A program made the position numbers and the translations under genes. Shown here one piece after another: positions 30,381 through 49,982 of a DNA stretch of 64,000 nucleotides. The stretch comes from Planctomycetota bacterium (GTDB lineage Bacteria > Planctomycetota > Phycisphaerae > UBA1845 > UTPLA1), in assembly GCA_016235815.1 (NCBI GenBank), contig JACRIM010000017.1, positions 1-64,000 of the forward strand, read 5' to 3'. The first letter of the stretch is position 1. Each line of letters opens with the position of its first letter. The notes under the pieces are model-generated. The model ran no database searches and was not told the DNA's origin. It saw nothing but the letters and a program-made list of their open reading frames with translations.

Positions 30381-30395
30381 TAGAATGCCGGGATG
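30381..30395 (+). promoter_or_regulatory. Candidate -10 box six bases from start of the membrane-protein gene
   Basis: TAGAAT at 30381-30386, then six bases (GCCGGG), then ATG 30393. No -35 match is convincing and no Shine-Dalgarno is present. It fits the leaderless spacing seen at arsR, argR and the ATPase gene but is the weakest of the set. Confidence 0.35.
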
Positions 30396-32228
30396 CTGAC
30401 CCCGGAGCAGCCGAAATCCCAATTCTTGACTCCGCGGCCTTCGGGTCGGCAGCGTGCGTTGACGGTGGTCGCGATTGGTTCACTTGCCGTTTTGTTTTTT
30501 ACCTGTGCTTGGCAGCGCGTCTGGGGAACTGATTTCTGGTGGCAATTCGCGACCGGCCGTCACATTGCCGAACATGGAATTCCCCGCCTTGATCCGTTTT
30601 CCTACAGCAGCGAAACGCCTCGGCCGTGGATCGAATTGCGCTGGCTGTATTGCCTTGCTTTGTACGAGGGCATCTTGCATTGGGGGCTGACGGCGGTACT
30701 CGCGATCAAGGCGGCGGTGCTGGCTGGTGCGTTTGCCCTGGTTGTGCATTGCATACGCCCCCAACGTTGGTCGGCGCTCATGGTGGCGCCGATTTTCTTT
30801 GCAATTTTGACGGCCCGGGGCCGGCTTTTTCTTCGGCCGGAAGTTATCAGCATCGTCTTGTTTGCCGTCTATCTTCGCCTTCTCGTTGGCTATCGTGATG
30901 GGGGAGGGCGCTGGATCTGGGCCATTCCATTTCTGCAACTACTCTGGGTGAACAGCCACACCGTGTTCATCATGGGGCCTGTGATCGTCGCACTTGCGGC
31001 GCTTTCGGATGCGATTGCGTTGATCCGGCGAAATCGAATGGCGGCGGACGATTTTCAACGTCGCCTAGCACGATTGCGCGAGTTGATCGTCCTGACGATG
31101 TTCACGGGTATTGCATGCATGGCGAATCCGTATGGCTGGGAGGGCGTTCTGTTTCCGTTTCAGCTTTTTCGACAGATCAGCGGCACGGCGTTCAAGGAGT
31201 TCATCTCCGAGTTCGGGGGCGTCTATAACTCGCCGCACTCCTTCATGTCCGTTTGGGCCTTTGATGCCCTTCTTGGGATGTCGGTGGTCTCTCTGTTGGC
31301 GAACCTTCGCCGGCTCGATGGATTCTTAACGCTTCTAACGATGGCGATGGCGTATCTCTCCATTCTCGCCGTGCGCAATCTGCCATTCTTCGCGATGGTG
31401 AGCGTACCGTTCATCGCTTGGAACATTCACGAATCGGCGCTGGCTCAAGCACCGCGTGTTCAGTCCCTGCTGAAACGCATGACGCCGCCCGTCTGTCTTG
31501 TGGTCATTGCCGCGTCGTGTTGGTACAGCCGGCAACTGGCCACGGACCGGCAGTTCCTCGGGATTATCAGCAGCGTGCAGTGCGGCGCGGGTTATGCGTT
31601 TCCCGAATACCCCATCGAGGCGGAGCGATTCTTGCGGGAGGCCAACGTTCCGAAGCCAATTTTCAACACACTGGCGGAGGGTTCGTTTCTGCTCGCTCAG
31701 GGGCACAAGGTTTTCATTGACCCGCGCCTGGAGGTTTACGGCGAGACGTTCTTTTCCCGACAGATTGACATGTTGCAAAACCGTGATTCGCTGGAGCGCG
31801 GCGTTGCGGAGTTTGGTGTCAGAACGATTTTCGTCGGGATCCACAGCCGGATTATCAATCACGTGGCGACGTCGCCGAACTGGAAACTTGTGTTCTTTGA
31901 CGAATGCGCGGCCGTATTTGTGCGAAGCGATTCGCTCGGTTCGCTTCGTCCGGTTGCATCCACGGCGGACTATGCGCGTGTCATCGCGGGTATTCGGGAG
32001 CGGCTCAAGTCGCCGACGCCGCTCGCCCGCCTGGGCTTTTTCGAGCGGGCAACCAACAGCATTCCGTATATGTTTTTGGCCGACTTTCTCCGCGTGATGG
32101 GCCAGCCGGGCCTTGCATTGCCCTTTATTGAGGATGCGCTCGCGGCCTACCCTGAGACGATCAACGCCGCACGTTCGCGCGACGACGTGCTCCGCATACT
32201 CCAACGTCAGGCCGCTGCAAAGCCCTGA
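30393..32228 (+). CDS. Large polytopic membrane protein, GT-C-like
   Basis: 611 residues. After a short basic N-terminus come about 9-11 membrane helices to residue ~400. Early loops read TDFWWQFATGRHIAEHG and DPFSYSSETPRPWIE, a layout seen in membrane glycosyltransferase-like proteins of planctomycetes (an Asp-containing first periplasmic loop). The C-terminal ~200 residues are soluble (FNTLAEGSFLLAQGHKVFID, RLEVYG). It might transfer lipid-linked sugars, but no catalytic motif is certain. Confidence 0.6.
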   Translation: MLTPEQPKSQFLTPRPSGRQRALTVVAIGSLAVLFFTCAWQRVWGTDFWWQFATGRHIAEHGIPRLDPFSYSSETPRPWIELRWLYCLALYEGILHWGLTAVLAIKAAVLAGAFALVVHCIRPQRWSALMVAPIFFAILTARGRLFLRPEVISIVLFAVYLRLLVGYRDGGGRWIWAIPFLQLLWVNSHTVFIMGPVIVALAALSDAIALIRRNRMAADDFQRRLARLRELIVLTMFTGIACMANPYGWEGVLFPFQLFRQISGTAFKEFISEFGGVYNSPHSFMSVWAFDALLGMSVVSLLANLRRLDGFLTLLTMAMAYLSILAVRNLPFFAMVSVPFIAWNIHESALAQAPRVQSLLKRMTPPVCLVVIAASCWYSRQLATDRQFLGIISSVQCGAGYAFPEYPIEAERFLREANVPKPIFNTLAEGSFLLAQGHKVFIDPRLEVYGETFFSRQIDMLQNRDSLERGVAEFGVRTIFVGIHSRIINHVATSPNWKLVFFDECAAVFVRSDSLGSLRPVASTADYARVIAGIRERLKSPTPLARLGFFERATNSIPYMFLADFLRVMGQPGLALPFIEDALAAYPETINAARSRDDVLRILQRQAAAKP

Positions 32229-39701: not shown

Positions 39702-40088
39702 TTACTTGCTTCCATTGTCGGCCGACTTTTTGTGAATCTGCCCGACCTTTTCGAGTATTTCAAGTAGATATTTTGTTGGAACATAACCTCTGATCTCTCG
39801 TATTTCGCTTGGGCGAAGGATTACCAACCAGTCGCAGACAGCAGCGCATCGGCGAGCCAAGCCAGTTGCAGGATGCCCACCTCGATACCAAGGGAGTTCA
39901 ACGTAGGAGCCTGGAACTGATTCTGGGATCAATGTCGAGACGGCAACTCCAACAATGGGTGAATCAAGTAAGATTTCGGAGTCAGCTGTAATAATCACAA
40001 GTGGTCGAGTTTTTAGCGTTCCACTGCGGTCTGGTATGCCGGCCCATACTATTGACCCCTGTTTGAGACTCGGTGGTGCTGGATTCAC
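39702..40088 (-). CDS. PemK/MazF-like toxin
   Basis: 128 residues. The start QGSIVWAGIPDRSGTLKTRP fits the MazF/PemK barrel opening (G-x-I-x-W, then a K-x-RPxxII). Later blocks (VGVAVSTLI, SYVELPW) follow the same fold. MazF-type proteins are sequence-specific mRNA interferases. The protein is somewhat longer and less canonical than E. coli MazF. It follows a small gene by 12 bases that is a natural antitoxin candidate. Confidence 0.75.
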   Translation of the reverse strand: MNPAPPSLKQGSIVWAGIPDRSGTLKTRPLVIITADSEILLDSPIVGVAVSTLIPESVPGSYVELPWYRGGHPATGLARRCAAVCDWLVILRPSEIREIRGYVPTKYLLEILEKVGQIHKKSADNGSK

Positions 40089-40361: not shown

Positions 40362-40763
40362 TTATTCAGAAGCATGCTTGATGTAAAGTGGACGTTGCTG
40401 CAGTATCGCGCCATCTGCTTTTAGCACGACCCAGTATTTCCCTTCTCTTTCGAACACTAAATTTGCAAGCGTGACATTGACGTCTGATATTGCCAATGGG
40501 TCATCGGCTCTTAATGGTCCGCTAATGCGAACGATCTCGGTTCCACTCTGCTCGTGCTCGACCGCCAATTCCAAGTTGTATTCGCCCTTTCCATTGGTCA
40601 ATGTGAATAAAACAACCAGTTTTCCGTGGGCGCAGGGCATGGTTGGGGCATTGATTGTGTTGAATACGCCGACGACGATCAGTTTTTTTGTCTGTTCATC
40701 GCGGTAAACATCGTCACAGACGACAATCGAAATGCAGGTTAGTTTTTCAGGATTCGTATTCAT
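40362..40763 (-). CDS. DUF6941-like protein
   Basis: About 133 residues from ATG 40763; ATG 40784 or TTG 40787 are alternatives placed nearer the promoter. The opening (ISIVVCDDVYRDEQTKKLIV, VGVFNTI) matches a family of short beta-sandwich proteins annotated DUF6941. There is no catalytic motif or signal peptide. It sits alone between the MazF-like operon and the arsenic operon; role unknown. Coordinates are 40362-40763 on the minus strand. Confidence 0.6.
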   Translation of the reverse strand: MNTNPEKLTCISIVVCDDVYRDEQTKKLIVVGVFNTINAPTMPCAHGKLVVLFTLTNGKGEYNLELAVEHEQSGTEIVRISGPLRADDPLAISDVNVTLANLVFEREGKYWVVLKADGAILQQRPLYIKHASE

Positions 40764-40795
40764 GGCATTTTCAAAGCAGCTCATCAATAACTACG

Positions 40796-40876: not shown

Positions 40877-40904
40877 TTGACGCGGCCCACCGGGTCGTTA
40901 TACT
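40877..40904 (+). promoter_or_regulatory. arsR promoter with start codon at +1
   Basis: TTGACG (40877-40882), 16-base spacer, TATACT (40899-40904), then six bases and GTG 40911. The expected transcription start coincides with GTG, giving a leaderless arsR transcript. There is no Shine-Dalgarno before GTG 40911 or ATG 40920. Confidence 0.75.
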
Positions 40905-40910
40905 TGCATA

Positions 40911-41285
40911 GTGACGCAAATGAGCAAGAGACATGCGACATCCAGAACCACTGCCTGCTGCGACCTTGCCGGCATCCTCCCGCCGCGGTTCTTCAAGGCA
41001 TTGGGCGATCCCAATCGAATCGCCTTGTTGGCTCGCCTCGCCGCGTGCGGCCGGCCCTGTGGCGTGACGGAGATGGCGGCCTGTTGCCCGATTGACTTCT
41101 CGGTCACTTCACGACACCTCGCGATCCTCCGGGACGCGGGGATCATCCATTCCGAAAAGCGCGGCAAGGAAGTCCACTACGCCGTGCGATTTCAGGAGAT
41201 TTCCACGGCCCTTCGCGCCATGGCCGATGCCCTCGATGGCTGCTGCCCGTCGCGCAAAACGAAAGCGAAAGGAACGACCAAATGA
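40911..41285 (+). CDS. arsR: ArsR-family metalloregulator
   Basis: 124 residues from GTG 40911 (ATG 40920 possible). The winged helix-turn-helix is clear (FFKALGDPNRIALLARLA, FSVTSRHLAILRDAGIIH, SEKRGKEVHYAV). Cys pairs CC near residue 16 and CGRPC...CC at ~46-59 could bind arsenite; the second set lies close to the recognition helix. It should repress the arsR-arsM-acr3 operon and be released by As(III). It overlaps arsM by four bases (ATGA). Confidence 0.93.
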   Translation: MTQMSKRHATSRTTACCDLAGILPPRFFKALGDPNRIALLARLAACGRPCGVTEMAACCPIDFSVTSRHLAILRDAGIIHSEKRGKEVHYAVRFQEISTALRAMADALDGCCPSRKTKAKGTTK

Positions 41286-42091
41286 ACTCCACCAAGTCCA
41301 TCCATGACTCCGTTGCCGAGGCCTATGCCAAAGCCGTTGTTGCTCCCAAATCCTCCGGCTGTTGCGGCGGCGGCACGCCCAAGGGCGTTCTCGCCAAGGT
41401 TGCCGGCTATCAGCGAGAAGAACTGGCGAAGCTCCCTGCCGATGCCGTCGTGAACTCCTTCGGCTGTGGGAATCCGCTGGCCTTCAGCGATGTTCGCCCC
41501 GGCGACGTGGTTCTCGATCTTGGCAGCGGCGCGGGGATTGATCTCCTCATCGCTTCTGAAAAAGTCGGCCCCACCGGCCGCGTCATCGGCGTCGACATGA
41601 CCGATGCCATGATCGAGCGTGCCCGGGCCAACATCGCCACGGCCGGCATTACAAACGTCGAGGTTCGCAAGGGGCTGATCGAGTCATTGCCGGTCGAATC
41701 GTCCAGCGTCGATTGGGTTATTTCCAATTGCGTTATCAATCTCTCACCGGATAAGCCGCACGTCTTTGCCGAAATCGCCCGTGTCCTTCGCGCCGGCGGG
41801 CACATGCGCGTCTCCGATGTCGTTGTCGAAGATCTCCCCCTCTCTATCCGACAGAGCCAGTCTCTCTACGGTTGCTGCGTGGCCGGCGCGGTCAGCGAGT
41901 CGGCGTATCTGCAGGGCCTTCGCGACGCAGGCATGGTCGATGTCGAAGTGCGCGACCGCGCCGTCTACACCGCCGCCCAACTCCGCGCCCTCGCCGGTTC
42001 GGAGGTCCTGAACGACCCGGCCGCCGCCGAAATGCTCGGCACATTGGAAGGCAAGGTCTGGAGCGCGATCATCGTCGCACGGAAGCCATAA
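41282..42091 (+). CDS. arsM: Arsenite S-adenosylmethionine methyltransferase
   Basis: 269 residues. The Rossmann SAM motif DLGSGAGIDLLIA and GVDMTDAMIERARANI are typical. The three arsenic-binding cysteines of ArsM correspond to Cys62 (FGCGNP), Cys150 (ISNCVINL) and Cys199 (YGCCVAGAV), and an extra pair CCGGG lies near 27. ArsM methylates As(III) to volatile or exportable methylarsenicals in the cytoplasm. It lies second in an arsR-arsM-acr3 operon, with the start overlapping arsR. Confidence 0.96.
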   Translation: MNSTKSIHDSVAEAYAKAVVAPKSSGCCGGGTPKGVLAKVAGYQREELAKLPADAVVNSFGCGNPLAFSDVRPGDVVLDLGSGAGIDLLIASEKVGPTGRVIGVDMTDAMIERARANIATAGITNVEVRKGLIESLPVESSSVDWVISNCVINLSPDKPHVFAEIARVLRAGGHMRVSDVVVEDLPLSIRQSQSLYGCCVAGAVSESAYLQGLRDAGMVDVEVRDRAVYTAAQLRALAGSEVLNDPAAAEMLGTLEGKVWSAIIVARKP

Positions 42092-42113: not shown

Positions 42114-43253
42114 ATGAATGTCGAGCATGATGTCCGACGCCTCAACATCTTTGAACGCTACCTCAGTCTCTGGGTGGCGTTTTGTATGGTTGCGGGCATC
42201 GCACTTGGCAAGATCGCGCCGCAGTTCATCAGCGGACTTCGCCGCCTTGAGTTCGGCGCAGGCAGCCAGATCAATATCCCCATCGCCGTCCTCATCTGGC
42301 TCATGATTTACCCCATGATGTTGAAGGTGGACTTCGCTTCCGTGCTTCGCGTGCGCGAACGACCGCGCGGCCTGCTCGTAACCTGCTTCGTGAATTGGAT
42401 GGTCAAACCTTTCAGCATGGCCCTGATCGGGTGGCTGTTCTTCAAGGTACTGTTTCTTCCATTGATCGGAAAAGAGTTGGCCGATCAATACATCGCGGGC
42501 GTCATCATCCTTGCCGCCGCGCCGTGCACGGCGATGGTTTTTGTGTGGAGTTACCTGACACGCGGGGACGCAGCGTACACGCTTGTTCAGGTGTCGGTGA
42601 ACGACCTTTTGATGCTCGTGCTCTTTGCTCCGATCGTCACGTTTCTTGTCGCGGGGGCATCGGCGCTCACCGTGCCGTTCATGGTGCTGGTGTACGCGGT
42701 GATTGCGTTTATCGTGATCCCGCTTGTTGCCGGCTCAATCACCCGCGTTCTTCTGATTCGCTCGCGTGGCGCGGCCTGGTTTGAGTCGACGTTTCTCCCT
42801 CGCTTTCACCCCGTCGCCGTTCTCTCCCTGCTCGGCACGCTCGTGCTGATCTTCGCATTCCAAGCCGACAACATCACGTCCCGCTACCTGCATGTACTTC
42901 TCATCGCCGTGCCGATCCTGATTCAGGTCTATTTCAACTCGTCACTTGCGTACGGTCTGATGAAACTACTGCGCGTGCCCCACGCCGTCGCCGCCCCGGG
43001 CGCATTGATTGGAGCCAGCAACTTCTTTGAACTCGCTGTCGCAACGGCCATTGCCCTCTACGGCCCCGACTCCGGCGCGGCCCTGGCCACCGTTGTCGGC
43101 GTTCTCGTCGAAGTGCCCGTGATGCTGAGCGTCTGTGCATTTTGCAACCGTACGCGCCACTGGTTCCCGGCTGAATCCGCCGCCGGCTGCCCTTCGCCCG
43201 CACCGGGTTGTTGCTCAAACTGGCGCGACTTTGCTCAACCCGCAGCAGCGTAG
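42114..43253 (+). CDS. acr3: Acr3-type arsenite efflux permease
   Basis: 379 residues with about ten membrane helices. Cys138 in AAAPCTAMVF is the conserved substrate cysteine of Acr3 (the AAPCTxMVFVWS motif). A later block, APGALIGASNFFELAVATA, is also family-specific. It exports As(OH)3 driven by the proton gradient. The C-terminal tail (CPSPAPGCCSN) adds three cysteines that most Acr3 proteins lack and may pre-bind metalloid. It follows arsM after 22 bases. Confidence 0.95.
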   Translation: MNVEHDVRRLNIFERYLSLWVAFCMVAGIALGKIAPQFISGLRRLEFGAGSQINIPIAVLIWLMIYPMMLKVDFASVLRVRERPRGLLVTCFVNWMVKPFSMALIGWLFFKVLFLPLIGKELADQYIAGVIILAAAPCTAMVFVWSYLTRGDAAYTLVQVSVNDLLMLVLFAPIVTFLVAGASALTVPFMVLVYAVIAFIVIPLVAGSITRVLLIRSRGAAWFESTFLPRFHPVAVLSLLGTLVLIFAFQADNITSRYLHVLLIAVPILIQVYFNSSLAYGLMKLLRVPHAVAAPGALIGASNFFELAVATAIALYGPDSGAALATVVGVLVEVPVMLSVCAFCNRTRHWFPAESAAGCPSPAPGCCSNWRDFAQPAAA

Positions 43254-46744: not shown

Positions 46745-46875
46745 AAGGCGCGAGTCGCAGAGTCGCCACGGCGACCCTTGTGGCATGTCGAGCAATTGCC
46801 GTACTTGCGACCAACGCGTTGAGAACGGCTCCGCGAACCGCGGGCTAGCGCCGCGCGGCTCGGATTTTTGCGTTG
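46745..46875. other. Gap between argH and proB with a palindromic element
   Basis: About 175 bases separate argH from proB on the same strand. The stretch near 46836-46857 (CCGCG...GCTAGC...CGCGG) is a GC-rich palindrome of the kind dispersed in planctomycete genomes. Another short inverted repeat (AGTCGCC-AC-GGCGACC) is at about 46758-46773. The two operons could share a transcript through this region. Confidence 0.4.
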
Positions 46876-48171
46876 CTATGCAAGCGACTTCAGCAACGCC
46901 TCCGCCGCGCGCCGCGTATCCGCCGGATTGGCGCTACCGCTCGTTGCGTAGAGGTTCACCCAATCTTTCGGCAAGCCCGCGAGTGACACCGTGCCCTTCG
47001 TTACTTCGTCCGCCACTGCGTGATGGGCGTCGCGCAGCGGCTTGCCCTGCATTACCAATTGCTCCATTCGCAAGGTCGCTTCAATCGCCCCTTGCTGCAT
47101 CGATGCCGCCAATCGCTCCCTGTCAAACTCCAGTTGCTCTAGGAACGCAGTCGCCAACTCAAGCAAGGCGCCTAATTTCTCCGCCGCGTCTCGCACGACC
47201 GGTTTGATGCACTGCAAGTCCCGGTTGTAGCCGCTCGGCAGTCCTTTCATCAGAAGCATCGCCTGCATCTGTGCCGCGATGATCGCGTTTGCCTCGCCTC
47301 GCATCAGCTCCATCGCATCGGGATTCATCTTATTCGGCATCATGGAAGACCCGGTGCCGAACTCCGCCGGGTACTTCGTCCATTGCAGCATCGTCTGCGA
47401 AAACACGATGACATCGGCCGCCAGCGATTGCAGATGCAGCGATGCTTGCGACGCAATAAACAAAAACTCCAGGCACTCGTCGCGCGTCGACGTTGAATCC
47501 AGCGCATTCAGCGACGGCCCCTCGAACATGAGCGCGCCGGCCTGCAATCCGCGATCGATTCCGATTGACGATCCGGCGACCGCGCCGCTGCCCAATGGGC
47601 AGAAACGTCGCCAAACCTCGCCCGCGCCGTCCCAGTGCCGTCGCACGCGATCGAACGCCGTTGCATACTTCATGATCCAGAAGCCGGCGTTGCCCGGGGC
47701 GGCGAATTGTTGATGCGTCTGCATCGGCATCACGACGTCGCTCCATGCAATCGCGCGGCGGCAGGCCGTTTCAACGAGTCGCTGCATCGCCGTGGATGCA
47801 CGTTGGCCCGCGTCAATGACGAACAGCCGGATCAACGTCGCCACCTGATCGTTTCGCGATCGCGCCGTGTGAATCTTCTTACCGGCGTCCCCGGCGCGCT
47901 TTACCAATTCGCCTTCGACCCATGTGTGCAGGTCTTCGGCATCGGACGCCGGGCAAGGCATCCCGACGTGCGTGGTCTCCAGATCGCCTACCGCGCGATC
48001 CAGCGCCTTCCGCTCGGCCGCGCTCAGAATCCCGGCGGCTGTCAGCGCTTCGGCGTGTGCCTTTTGCAGTCGCAGTTCATACGGCAGCAGGAACCAGTCG
48101 GCCTCCAGGCACCGATTTAGCTTTTCGAACGCCGGATGCAGGCTTACCCCCTGTTTCCAAAGTGCCGCCAT
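46876..48171 (-). CDS. argH: Argininosuccinate lyase
   Basis: 431 residues from ATG 48171, with GGAGGAG seven bases upstream. It is the last step of arginine synthesis. The fumarase/aspartase-superfamily signature GSSMMPNKMNPDAMELMR is intact, and KKIHTARSRNDQVATL and STSTRDECLEFLF are conserved blocks. The gene begins 95 bases inside the end of argG, in another frame. It is slightly shorter than the ~460-residue norm. Confidence 0.95.
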   Translation of the reverse strand: MAALWKQGVSLHPAFEKLNRCLEADWFLLPYELRLQKAHAEALTAAGILSAAERKALDRAVGDLETTHVGMPCPASDAEDLHTWVEGELVKRAGDAGKKIHTARSRNDQVATLIRLFVIDAGQRASTAMQRLVETACRRAIAWSDVVMPMQTHQQFAAPGNAGFWIMKYATAFDRVRRHWDGAGEVWRRFCPLGSGAVAGSSIGIDRGLQAGALMFEGPSLNALDSTSTRDECLEFLFIASQASLHLQSLAADVIVFSQTMLQWTKYPAEFGTGSSMMPNKMNPDAMELMRGEANAIIAAQMQAMLLMKGLPSGYNRDLQCIKPVVRDAAEKLGALLELATAFLEQLEFDRERLAASMQQGAIEATLRMEQLVMQGKPLRDAHHAVADEVTKGTVSLAGLPKDWVNLYATSGSANPADTRRAAEALLKSLA

Positions 48172-49375
48172 GAGTCTCCTCCGCAAAGGGTTTGCCGATC
48201 GATGTCATCCACGTCAGGCGGATGAACCCCGCCGCATCCTGATGCGAAAAGTCGCTCTTCTCGAACGTCGCCACATTCTTTGAGAAGATGGCCGCGTCGG
48301 CGTTGATCGTGGCTGCGTAGGGCACAGGCTCCAGATGAACCGTAACGTCGCCCGACAGGTGCTGCATCGCCGCGGTGGCCGCTGCCTGCAGCATGACCCG
48401 CTGATCGGAAAAGAACTCGCCGCGATAGAGCATCGCCCCATACTGCTTCCCCAGTTCGACATACTGATCGTAGGTCGGCTTGTTCAAACTCGTCCGCGCC
48501 AAGGCATCGATCGCGACGTGCAGCAGCTTCGCCGCCGGGTTGATATAAAGCCCGCGCGACTTTACGCCGGTGAATCGATTCTCGATAACAAGATCCCACG
48601 CCCACGGCGCGGATCGGTATTCGTGGTTGAGCGTTGCCACCAGCTCCAGCAGCGACAATCGCTCGCCGTTGTACGCCACCGGCACGCCCTGCTCGAACGT
48701 GATCGTCGCGGTAAGCTCGCCGTGGCTGCCGTTTACGCCGCCCGCGAATCGGTCGTTCACGCCTTTGAGCACTTCCTCAATCCGCACCGTCGCGGAGGGA
48801 TCCTCCAGAGGCCCGCCTTCGACGCTCAGATGCCACAAGTTTTCATCGAGACTGAAATCCTTCGTCAGGGCGTAGTCGCCTTCGATCCCGTGTTTGCGAA
48901 GGTACGCGATCATGTCGCTGCGGCCGCCGATGTCCCACACCTTCCACGGTGCGAGCACCTCGCACTCCGGCGCCAGTGACCGATAGGCGAACTCGAAGCG
49001 AATCTGGTCATTGCCCTTGCCCGTTGCTCCATGCACCAGCGTCGCGCCGCCGAGCTGTTTCGCCAGCCGAACCTGCTCGGCCGCGATGAACGGCCGCGCC
49101 AGCGCCGTGCCGAGGTGATAGGTCCCCTCGTACGTCGCACCCAGTCCGATCACCCACGGCAAGACGTGTTGACACATCGCCGGCCGGGCGTCGCGAATCT
49201 CGGCGGTCTTCGCGCCGAGTTGCAATGCCTTCTCGCACAACGCGGGCAAGTCTTCCTCCTGCCCGACGTCGATGAGCACGGCATGGACCTCATAGCCGCG
49301 CTCGCGCAACCACACCACGATGGTCGTGGTGTCGAGTCCGCCGGAATAAGCCAGCACACATTTCTTATCGCTCAT
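48077..49375 (-). CDS. argG: Argininosuccinate synthase
   Basis: 432 residues from ATG 49375 (GGAG seven bases upstream). The ATP-binding P-loop LAYSGGLDTTTIVVWL and the block THGATGKGNDQIRFE are canonical. It joins citrulline and aspartate. After the normal end near FIRLTWMTS it carries about 35 extra, low-complexity residues (TLETGGKPASGVRKAK). These exist because the frame runs on through the start of argH. The start overlaps argR by 11 bases. Confidence 0.96.
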   Translation of the reverse strand: MSDKKCVLAYSGGLDTTTIVVWLRERGYEVHAVLIDVGQEEDLPALCEKALQLGAKTAEIRDARPAMCQHVLPWVIGLGATYEGTYHLGTALARPFIAAEQVRLAKQLGGATLVHGATGKGNDQIRFEFAYRSLAPECEVLAPWKVWDIGGRSDMIAYLRKHGIEGDYALTKDFSLDENLWHLSVEGGPLEDPSATVRIEEVLKGVNDRFAGGVNGSHGELTATITFEQGVPVAYNGERLSLLELVATLNHEYRSAPWAWDLVIENRFTGVKSRGLYINPAAKLLHVAIDALARTSLNKPTYDQYVELGKQYGAMLYRGEFFSDQRVMLQAAATAAMQHLSGDVTVHLEPVPYAATINADAAIFSKNVATFEKSDFSHQDAAGFIRLTWMTSIGKPFAEETHGGTLETGGKPASGVRKAKSVPGGRLVPAAV

Positions 49376-49817
49376 GCTTTTCTCCAAACCAGTGAGCCAG
49401 TCGCCGCAGGGCCACAACCTGCGAACGCCGGTTCTTTGTTGCCATGAAAATCGTGTCATCGCCGGCCAGTGTCGCCGTGATCGCCGGCTCGGCCGTCGCG
49501 TCGATCTTGACCGCCAGCGGTTGCGCTGCCCCGGTCGTGGTGCGAAGGACGATCAGGTGCGGCCCGCAGGTCGTGTAATTGACGACCGCCGCTCCAAACG
49601 TCGGCTCCGGTGCGGGCCGACCGGATTGCTCGACGATCTCATATTTCCCGCGAACCTTGCGGATCTCCAGCTCAACGAGGTCTCGGCTCAGCGTGGATTG
49701 ATCCACCGCCATGCCGCGACCGCGCAGGGCCTTTCGCAACTCGGCCTGCGTTCCGACCGTGCCGCTTCGCACGATCTGCCGAATCGCCTCCTGCCGCTCG
49801 TCCTTGGTCGCCTGCAT
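49365..49817 (-). CDS. argR: Arginine repressor
   Basis: 150 residues from ATG 49817. The N-terminal winged helix (ERQEAIRQIVRSGTVGTQAE, VDQSTLSRDLVELEIRKVRG) is followed by the hexamerisation/arginine-binding domain (LIVLRTTTGAAQPLAVKID, TLAGDDTIFMATKN). It should repress arginine genes with arginine as corepressor. It heads argR-argG-argH, and its promoter contains an inverted repeat between -35 and -10, consistent with autorepression. The start is leaderless. Confidence 0.95.
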   Translation of the reverse strand: MQATKDERQEAIRQIVRSGTVGTQAELRKALRGRGMAVDQSTLSRDLVELEIRKVRGKYEIVEQSGRPAPEPTFGAAVVNYTTCGPHLIVLRTTTGAAQPLAVKIDATAEPAITATLAGDDTIFMATKNRRSQVVALRRLAHWFGEKHER

Positions 49818-49823
49818 CCGATG

Positions 49824-49852
49824 AGTATAGCATACTATGCACAAGTATGCAA
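49824..49852 (-). promoter_or_regulatory. argR promoter with embedded ARG-box-like operator
   Basis: Minus strand: TTGCAT (plus 49847-49852), 17-base spacer, TATACT (plus 49824-49829), six bases, ATG 49817. Inside the spacer lies a perfect 7-bp inverted repeat, GCATACT (49830-49836) and AGTATGC (49844-49850), with a 7-base centre. The TGCATA half-sites resemble actinobacterial ARG boxes. Repressor bound here would block polymerase directly. Confidence 0.8.
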
Positions 49853-49953
49853 CATGATTTTCTGCATTTCTTAGATAGACGATCGCAGCGGACAAGGGGC
49901 GAAGCCCCCACGCGTTCGTTCGGGGTCATTGCAGGAACTCTGAGCCGGATGAC

Positions 49954-49982
49954 TTTTGTGGAATCGCGCGCGGGACTATGAT
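49954..49982 (+). promoter_or_regulatory. Promoter of the ATPase/TOPRIM pair
   Basis: TATGAT at 49977-49982, six bases (CTTGAC), ATG 49989. A TTTTGT hexamer lies 17 bases upstream of the -10, a weak -35. There is no Shine-Dalgarno, so a leaderless start is likely. Confidence 0.55.

Follow-up and report, generated by a model that had tools for sequence, protein, structure and literature searches.

A predicted leaderless arsR start within its promoter and putative operator in a Planctomycetota arsenic operon

The acuR-acuI-dddL operon of Rhodobacter sphaeroides begins with the gene of an autorepressor, and mapping placed the 5' end of its leaderless transcript at the AUG of this gene; an inverted-repeat operator overlaps the promoter, the downstream genes carry Shine-Dalgarno (SD) sites, the abstract reports weaker translation of acuR than of the genes that follow, and homologous operons of the acuR type in other bacteria are likewise reported to be without leaders (PMC3017554). 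Classical repressors described as products of leaderless mRNA include those encoded by lambda cI and Tn1721 tetR (PMC3017554, PMC9938897). Among metal-responsive systems, the Zur-controlled genes cg0042, cg0043 and cg2911 of Corynebacterium glutamicum are reported to be transcribed from the A of the ATG, in the case of cg0043 by prediction (PMC2823685). At the level of whole genomes, a TANNNT signal upstream of genes was read in one survey as the mark of leaderless genes (PMC3160421), and Planctomycetes, represented by a single genome, are named among the phyla in which nucleotide bias points to leaderless mRNA and/or initiation with ribosomal protein S1 (PMC5397173). In our literature searches on leaderless arsR, Planctomycetes and an ArsR operator at a start codon, the titles and abstract openings did not describe the arrangement reported below, and a search for planctomycete transcription start sites and dRNA-seq returned only a study that concerns Streptomyces by its title.

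The window, i.e. the whole stretch of 64,000 nucleotides analysed here, contains an arsR gene (40911..41285, + strand) encoding a metalloregulator of the ArsR/SmtB family (NF033788: 66.9 bits, cut-off 55; PF12840: 30, cut-off 27; PF01022: 24.5, cut-off 22, all over threshold). It is followed on the same strand by arsM (41282..42091), encoding an arsenite methyltransferase (NF008823: 285.6 bits, cut-off 263), whose start overlaps the arsR stop and is preceded by an SD-like AAAGGA, and by acr3 (42114..43253), encoding an arsenite efflux transporter (TIGR00832: 362.3 bits, cut-off 282.8), with an SD-like GGAG 7 nt before its ATG. The operon content is arsR-arsM-acr3; the source genome, which belongs to the same taxonomic order as the relative G022, comprises 4.58 Mb in 60 contigs, and the close arsR orthologues that are named come mostly from Planctomycetota records. 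ArsR possesses, as candidate arsenite-binding residues, the pairs Cys16-Cys17 and Cys58-Cys59 (numbered from the GTG), mostly conserved in an alignment in which eight rows were counted and L055 and L059 were left out. These pairs may resemble the sensor cysteines of ArsR from C. glutamicum. Just upstream of the arsR region, a gene on the opposite strand (39705-40088, -) encodes a protein weakly similar to PemK/MazF (PF02452: 21.5 bits, under the cut-off of 23.1), and a DUF6941 gene (40362-40787) adjoins it. Rfam and tRNA scans of the window gave no matches.

Our main reading, to which we assign a probability of roughly 0.8, is that promoter, operator and start codon of arsR are fused into one element heading an arsenic-inducible, autorepressed arsR-arsM-acr3 operon, with arsR predicted to be leaderless or to have a leader no longer than about 10 nt. 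The -35 element TTGACG (40877..40882, +), of which TTGAC is also present upstream of most orthologues, is followed after 16 nt by the -10 element TATACT (40899..40904, +), and this in turn lies 6 nt (TGCATA) before the GTG start codon (40911..40913, +), the predicted +1 of the transcript. The -10 hexamer begins 12 nt before the GTG, about the distance at which TANNNT is read as the mark of a leaderless gene. No purine-rich SD sequence precedes either this GTG or the second in-frame start, an ATG (40920..40922, +) that corresponds to start positions in orthologues and would give a leader of 9 nt. The preliminary description of this DNA had reported the promoter, the 6-nt gap and the lack of an SD sequence, all of which we find at arsR, and its view that arsR is leaderless gains, in the leaderless or near-leaderless form, from an exact spacing kept in relatives and a non-random frequency of that spacing in the genome. 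What it overlooked is an inverted repeat.

The repeat, TTGCAY-N4-RYGCAA, spans 16-20 bp from the last T of the -10 hexamer through the start codon, with the core TTGCAT-AGTG-ACGCAA at 40904..40919 (+). For comparison, orthologues were anchored on a looser form of the repeat, so that 26 of the 30 loci given could be aligned (L055, L056, L063 and L073 are absent), and in all 26 of them the repeat is invariant at positions 1-4 (T, G, C, A), 12 (G) and 15 (A). A further GCAA-like half-site lies about 8 nt downstream, with positions +21 to +23 each kept in 23-24 of the 26. Judged by sequence and conservation, the element appears to be a palindrome overlapping its own promoter, as in ArsR/SmtB metalloregulators, and because its placement over the -10 box, the +1 and the start codon suits an autorepressor, we regard it as almost certainly the ArsR operator.

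According to this model, RNA polymerase carrying the main sigma factor would begin transcription on the arsR start codon or no more than a few bases away from it. ArsR would accordingly be made from an mRNA that has no leader, or a short one of up to about 10 nt that lacks an SD sequence. Without arsenite, an ArsR dimer bound to TTGCAY-N4-RYGCAA would cover the -10 box, the +1 and the start codon and thus block its own operon; arsenite would free the operator from ArsR, and arsM and acr3 would be translated in the normal manner from their SD-like sites. The layout would then keep the repressor scarce and the enzyme and the pump abundant, a logic suggested by the SD-like sites of arsM and acr3 and by the match to the layout of acuR-acuI-dddL.

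A set of 42 ArsR loci, reduced to 40 by dropping two exact duplicates (L101 and L108 share the same printed promoter region and both count), was used for a tally of every in-frame start preceding the DNA-binding domain. TANNNT lies exactly 6-7 nt before such a start in 24/40 loci, and over all gaps the tally has its maximum at 6 (19 cases). Within L049-L073, comprising the window gene and 24 relatives, the gap is 6-7 nt in 18 of 25 loci and 9-16 nt in six, and one is broken. The nearest TANNNT is found 9-16 nt before the start in 8/40 loci, which implies leaders of about 3-10 nt, and the remaining eight have no match: L096, L106 and L107 fail solely by the hexamer rule, L072 is the broken one, and in L098, L100, L103 and L104, whose records do not bear the Planctomycetota label, the leader is longer; it holds an SD-like site in L098, L103 and L104, and no clear one in L100. 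Further out in the class and phylum (E ≤ 1e-20; 392 genomes of the phylum sampled), 12 of 19 additional loci have the 6-7 nt gap. As the orthologues are related, none of these counts are independent.

One could object that the repressor site simply has to cover the -10 box and that the start codon came to lie there by accident, making the geometry a by-product. The repeat does overlap both the -10 and the start in nearly all Planctomycetota orthologues, as this explanation would have it. However, in L066, L067, L070 and L071 a -10 hexamer and an ATG are both displaced 3 nt upstream relative to the repeat with the gap of 6 retained, while in the alphaproteobacterial L106, L107, L109 and L110 the repeat itself stands upstream of the -10, and TATACA, TATACA, TATACT and TATATT, respectively, still stand 6 nt before the ATG. 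These two groups point to conservation of the gap as such, and since the same gap also occurs at argR and across the genome (see below), we consider an accidental by-product improbable.

Three loci show related variants. In L100 (labelled Deltaproteobacteria) the same promoter, operator and GTG are present, but the frame opened by this GTG ends after four codons and the start of arsR lies further downstream; either a leaderless start has been lost here or the sequence contains an error. L052 (arsR), which has an SD-like AGGA, and L146 (argR) have short SD-bearing leaders and could be transitional between the leaderless and the SD-led form.

The choice between the two start codons is less clear. 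The position of GTG 40911 is occupied by ATG in 15 and by GTG in one of the 26 anchored orthologues, and in 8/26 it is the sole candidate among four offsets. The position of ATG 40920 holds an ATG in 10/26, and in four of these (L050, L052, L095 and L097) it is the only ATG or GTG near the promoter. This variation suggests that some members are truly leaderless and others have leaders of about 9 nt. Leaderless GUG is reported to be poorly used in E. coli and efficiently used in some Actinobacteria (PMC9031893), and the weakness in E. coli either favours ATG 40920 or leaves the GTG uncertain. Thus, arsR of the window may start at ATG 40920 rather than at GTG 40911, or both codons may be used. 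The stricter alternative that translation begins from ATG 40920 after a leader of about 9 nt, with GTG 40911 being just operator sequence, draws on the orthologues with ATG 40920 and on the E. coli data, but the 40911 position holds ATG or GTG in 16/26 and the window retains both codons; we therefore rate it as possible, if rather unlikely.

The same geometry was sought across the window at every ATG, GTG or TTG opening at least 80 codons (n = 1,814), with TA...T differing from TATAAT by one mismatch at most. Four sites (40911+, 49817-, 49989+ and 30393+) have a gap of exactly 6, against a mean of 0.73 over gaps 12-59; the scan thus returned, together with arsR, precisely the argR, ATPase and 30393 sites at which the preliminary description had seen the geometry recur. 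With -35 mismatches of 1 at arsR, 3 at argR, 3 at the ATPase gene and 4 at 30393, arsR has the best promoter among them. By itself the window count is unconvincing, as four against about 0.7 is a small excess, and the test was picked after the sites were known. A sample of the genome provides a stronger test. The smallness of this count would suit the view that a -10-like hexamer happens to precede the GTG by chance, with the true promoter and leader elsewhere, but conservation in 24/40 loci and a genome-wide peak at this spacing make that very improbable.

The argR gene (49365..49817, -) heads argR-argG-argH-proB-proA and encodes the arginine repressor (PF01316 and PF02863 over cut-off; TIGR01529 at 92.8 bits, under its cut-off of 130.45), and its -10 TATACT (49824..49829, -) lies 6 nt before ATG 49817. 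Among argR loci of at least 45% identity the 6-7 nt gap is found in 12/18, among more distant ones in 0/12; the exact spacing in the close loci supports the proposed leaderless or near-leaderless start of argR. Before the -10 (49830-49870, -), and in L131-L148, there are repeated TTGCATA/TGCATA-like motifs conserved among close argR loci, which are likely to be ArgR boxes. At the other two sites the geometry is present as claimed, but its conservation is weaker. For the AAA ATPase gene, with the -10-like TATGAT (49977..49982, +) 6 nt before ATG 49989, TACGAT-6-ATG occurs in L182 only, one of four close homologues, and is absent from L183-L185. For the gene without a Pfam family at ATG 30393, the weakest site, with TAGAAT (30381..30386, +) 6 nt upstream, TAGATT-6-ATG was found in L164, and in other homologues it is missing or unclear.

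In the genome sample (613 called genes from 834 kb), the 369 genes without an SD sequence have TANNNT at gaps 6-10 in 12, 10, 7, 8 and 8 cases, against a background of 2.5 per position, whereas the 244 SD genes have it once in total over these gaps. With more than 40 nt of upstream space required, the no-SD genes (n = 280) give 11, 9, 5, 6 and 5 against 1.8 per position, or 36 against 9.0 expected (Poisson p ~1e-11), and the SD genes (n = 168) again one in all, against 2.26 per position. Individual starts in these counts are rough assignments because they were picked by a simple gene caller made for this analysis, which placed arsR at 41064 and the 30393 gene at 30465, both overridden. A 400-kb sample of the relative G002 (169 no-SD genes) has TANNNT in 3, 6, 3 and 3 cases at gaps 6-9 against 0.69 per position. 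The preliminary description had held that a random frequency of this spacing genome-wide would refute its leaderless starts; in these samples the frequency is not random, and genes with a -10 box just before a start that lacks an SD sequence form a real, if small, class in the genome. The -35 region contributes little to the genome-wide case, since its mismatches at the candidates with gaps 6-10 are not clearly fewer than at other -10-like sites.

The preliminary description had further proposed that regulators without leaders would offer a stress signal a way around normal initiation; on such a view, their mRNAs would be translated when that initiation fails. In the window arsR and argR both encode regulators, and leaderless mRNAs can be favoured in E. 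coli under some conditions, but the MazF model of stress ribosomes, on which ideas of this sort draw, is reported in the same source as not reproduced by other laboratories (PMC9031893). The candidates number 43 at gaps 5-10, of which the 29 at gaps 6-8 were listed and 20 of these 29 scanned (argR of the window is in the 29 and outside the 20). None of the 20 matches a helix-turn-helix regulator family; 18 have some Pfam match, and most are housekeeping genes, including mfd, priA, uvrD, murJ, MTHFR and one for a NusG-like protein. ArgR, moreover, is not a stress regulator. A use of leaderless starts specific to regulators is thus not supported by the 20 genes scanned, and we find the stress bypass quite implausible.

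A near copy of the arsR operator, CTTGCATAGCAACGCAAA, is present at 46867-46884 (-), at the end of argH and about 120 nt upstream of proB. The exact operator pattern occurs three times in the source genome against none for a reversed control, but across 31 genomes the control is found about as often as the pattern, so the copy at argH is probably due to chance and we do not retain it as a second operator. In the relative G018, TTGCATGTGAACGCAA is found at seven places on several contigs (L203), possibly as part of a dispersed repeat.

We give even odds to a wider reading, in which throughout Planctomycetota a single element of about 20 bp would serve as -10, +1, ArsR operator and start codon, with selection keeping the distance from -10 to start even though the operator moves. 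Leaderless initiation would then be a regular minor route that tolerates an AUG 0-10 nt from the 5' end, perhaps with two forms of ArsR (from GTG 40911 and ATG 40920). The arsR element offers a widely conserved, testable example of predicted leaderless initiation in this phylum; the joint shift of -10 and start in orthologues lets one ask how strictly such initiation sets the 5' end, and the layout suggests a simple way to keep the repressor dose low with SD-led effector genes.

Among known systems, arsR resembles the TA-led genes of Zheng et al. 2011, in which a TANNNT some 12 bp ahead of the start is taken as the -10 of a leaderless gene; that work is a genome survey, its main text is without the string "planctomycet", and it is not known to deal with operators (PMC3160421). 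The Zur-controlled leaderless genes of C. glutamicum are likewise governed by a metal regulator whose motif overlaps the core promoter, but znr-zur, the operon of the repressor, carries a leader of 45 nt, unlike what is predicted for arsR (PMC2823685). The leaderless lambda cI and Tn1721 tetR, for which operator overlap is known as well, belong to a phage and a transposon of Proteobacteria, unlike arsR. The sequence layout is closest to acuR-acuI-dddL, with the repressor first, predicted to be leaderless, and effector genes with SD-like sites after it. AcuR is an acrylate-responsive repressor of the TetR family, whereas the regulator here is of the ArsR family and its repeat extends into the start codon; hence the arsR operon would work like the acuR type without being a member of it. 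A leaderless autorepressor with an overlapping operator is a kind of arrangement already known, of which the arsR site is a new case and not a new mechanism.
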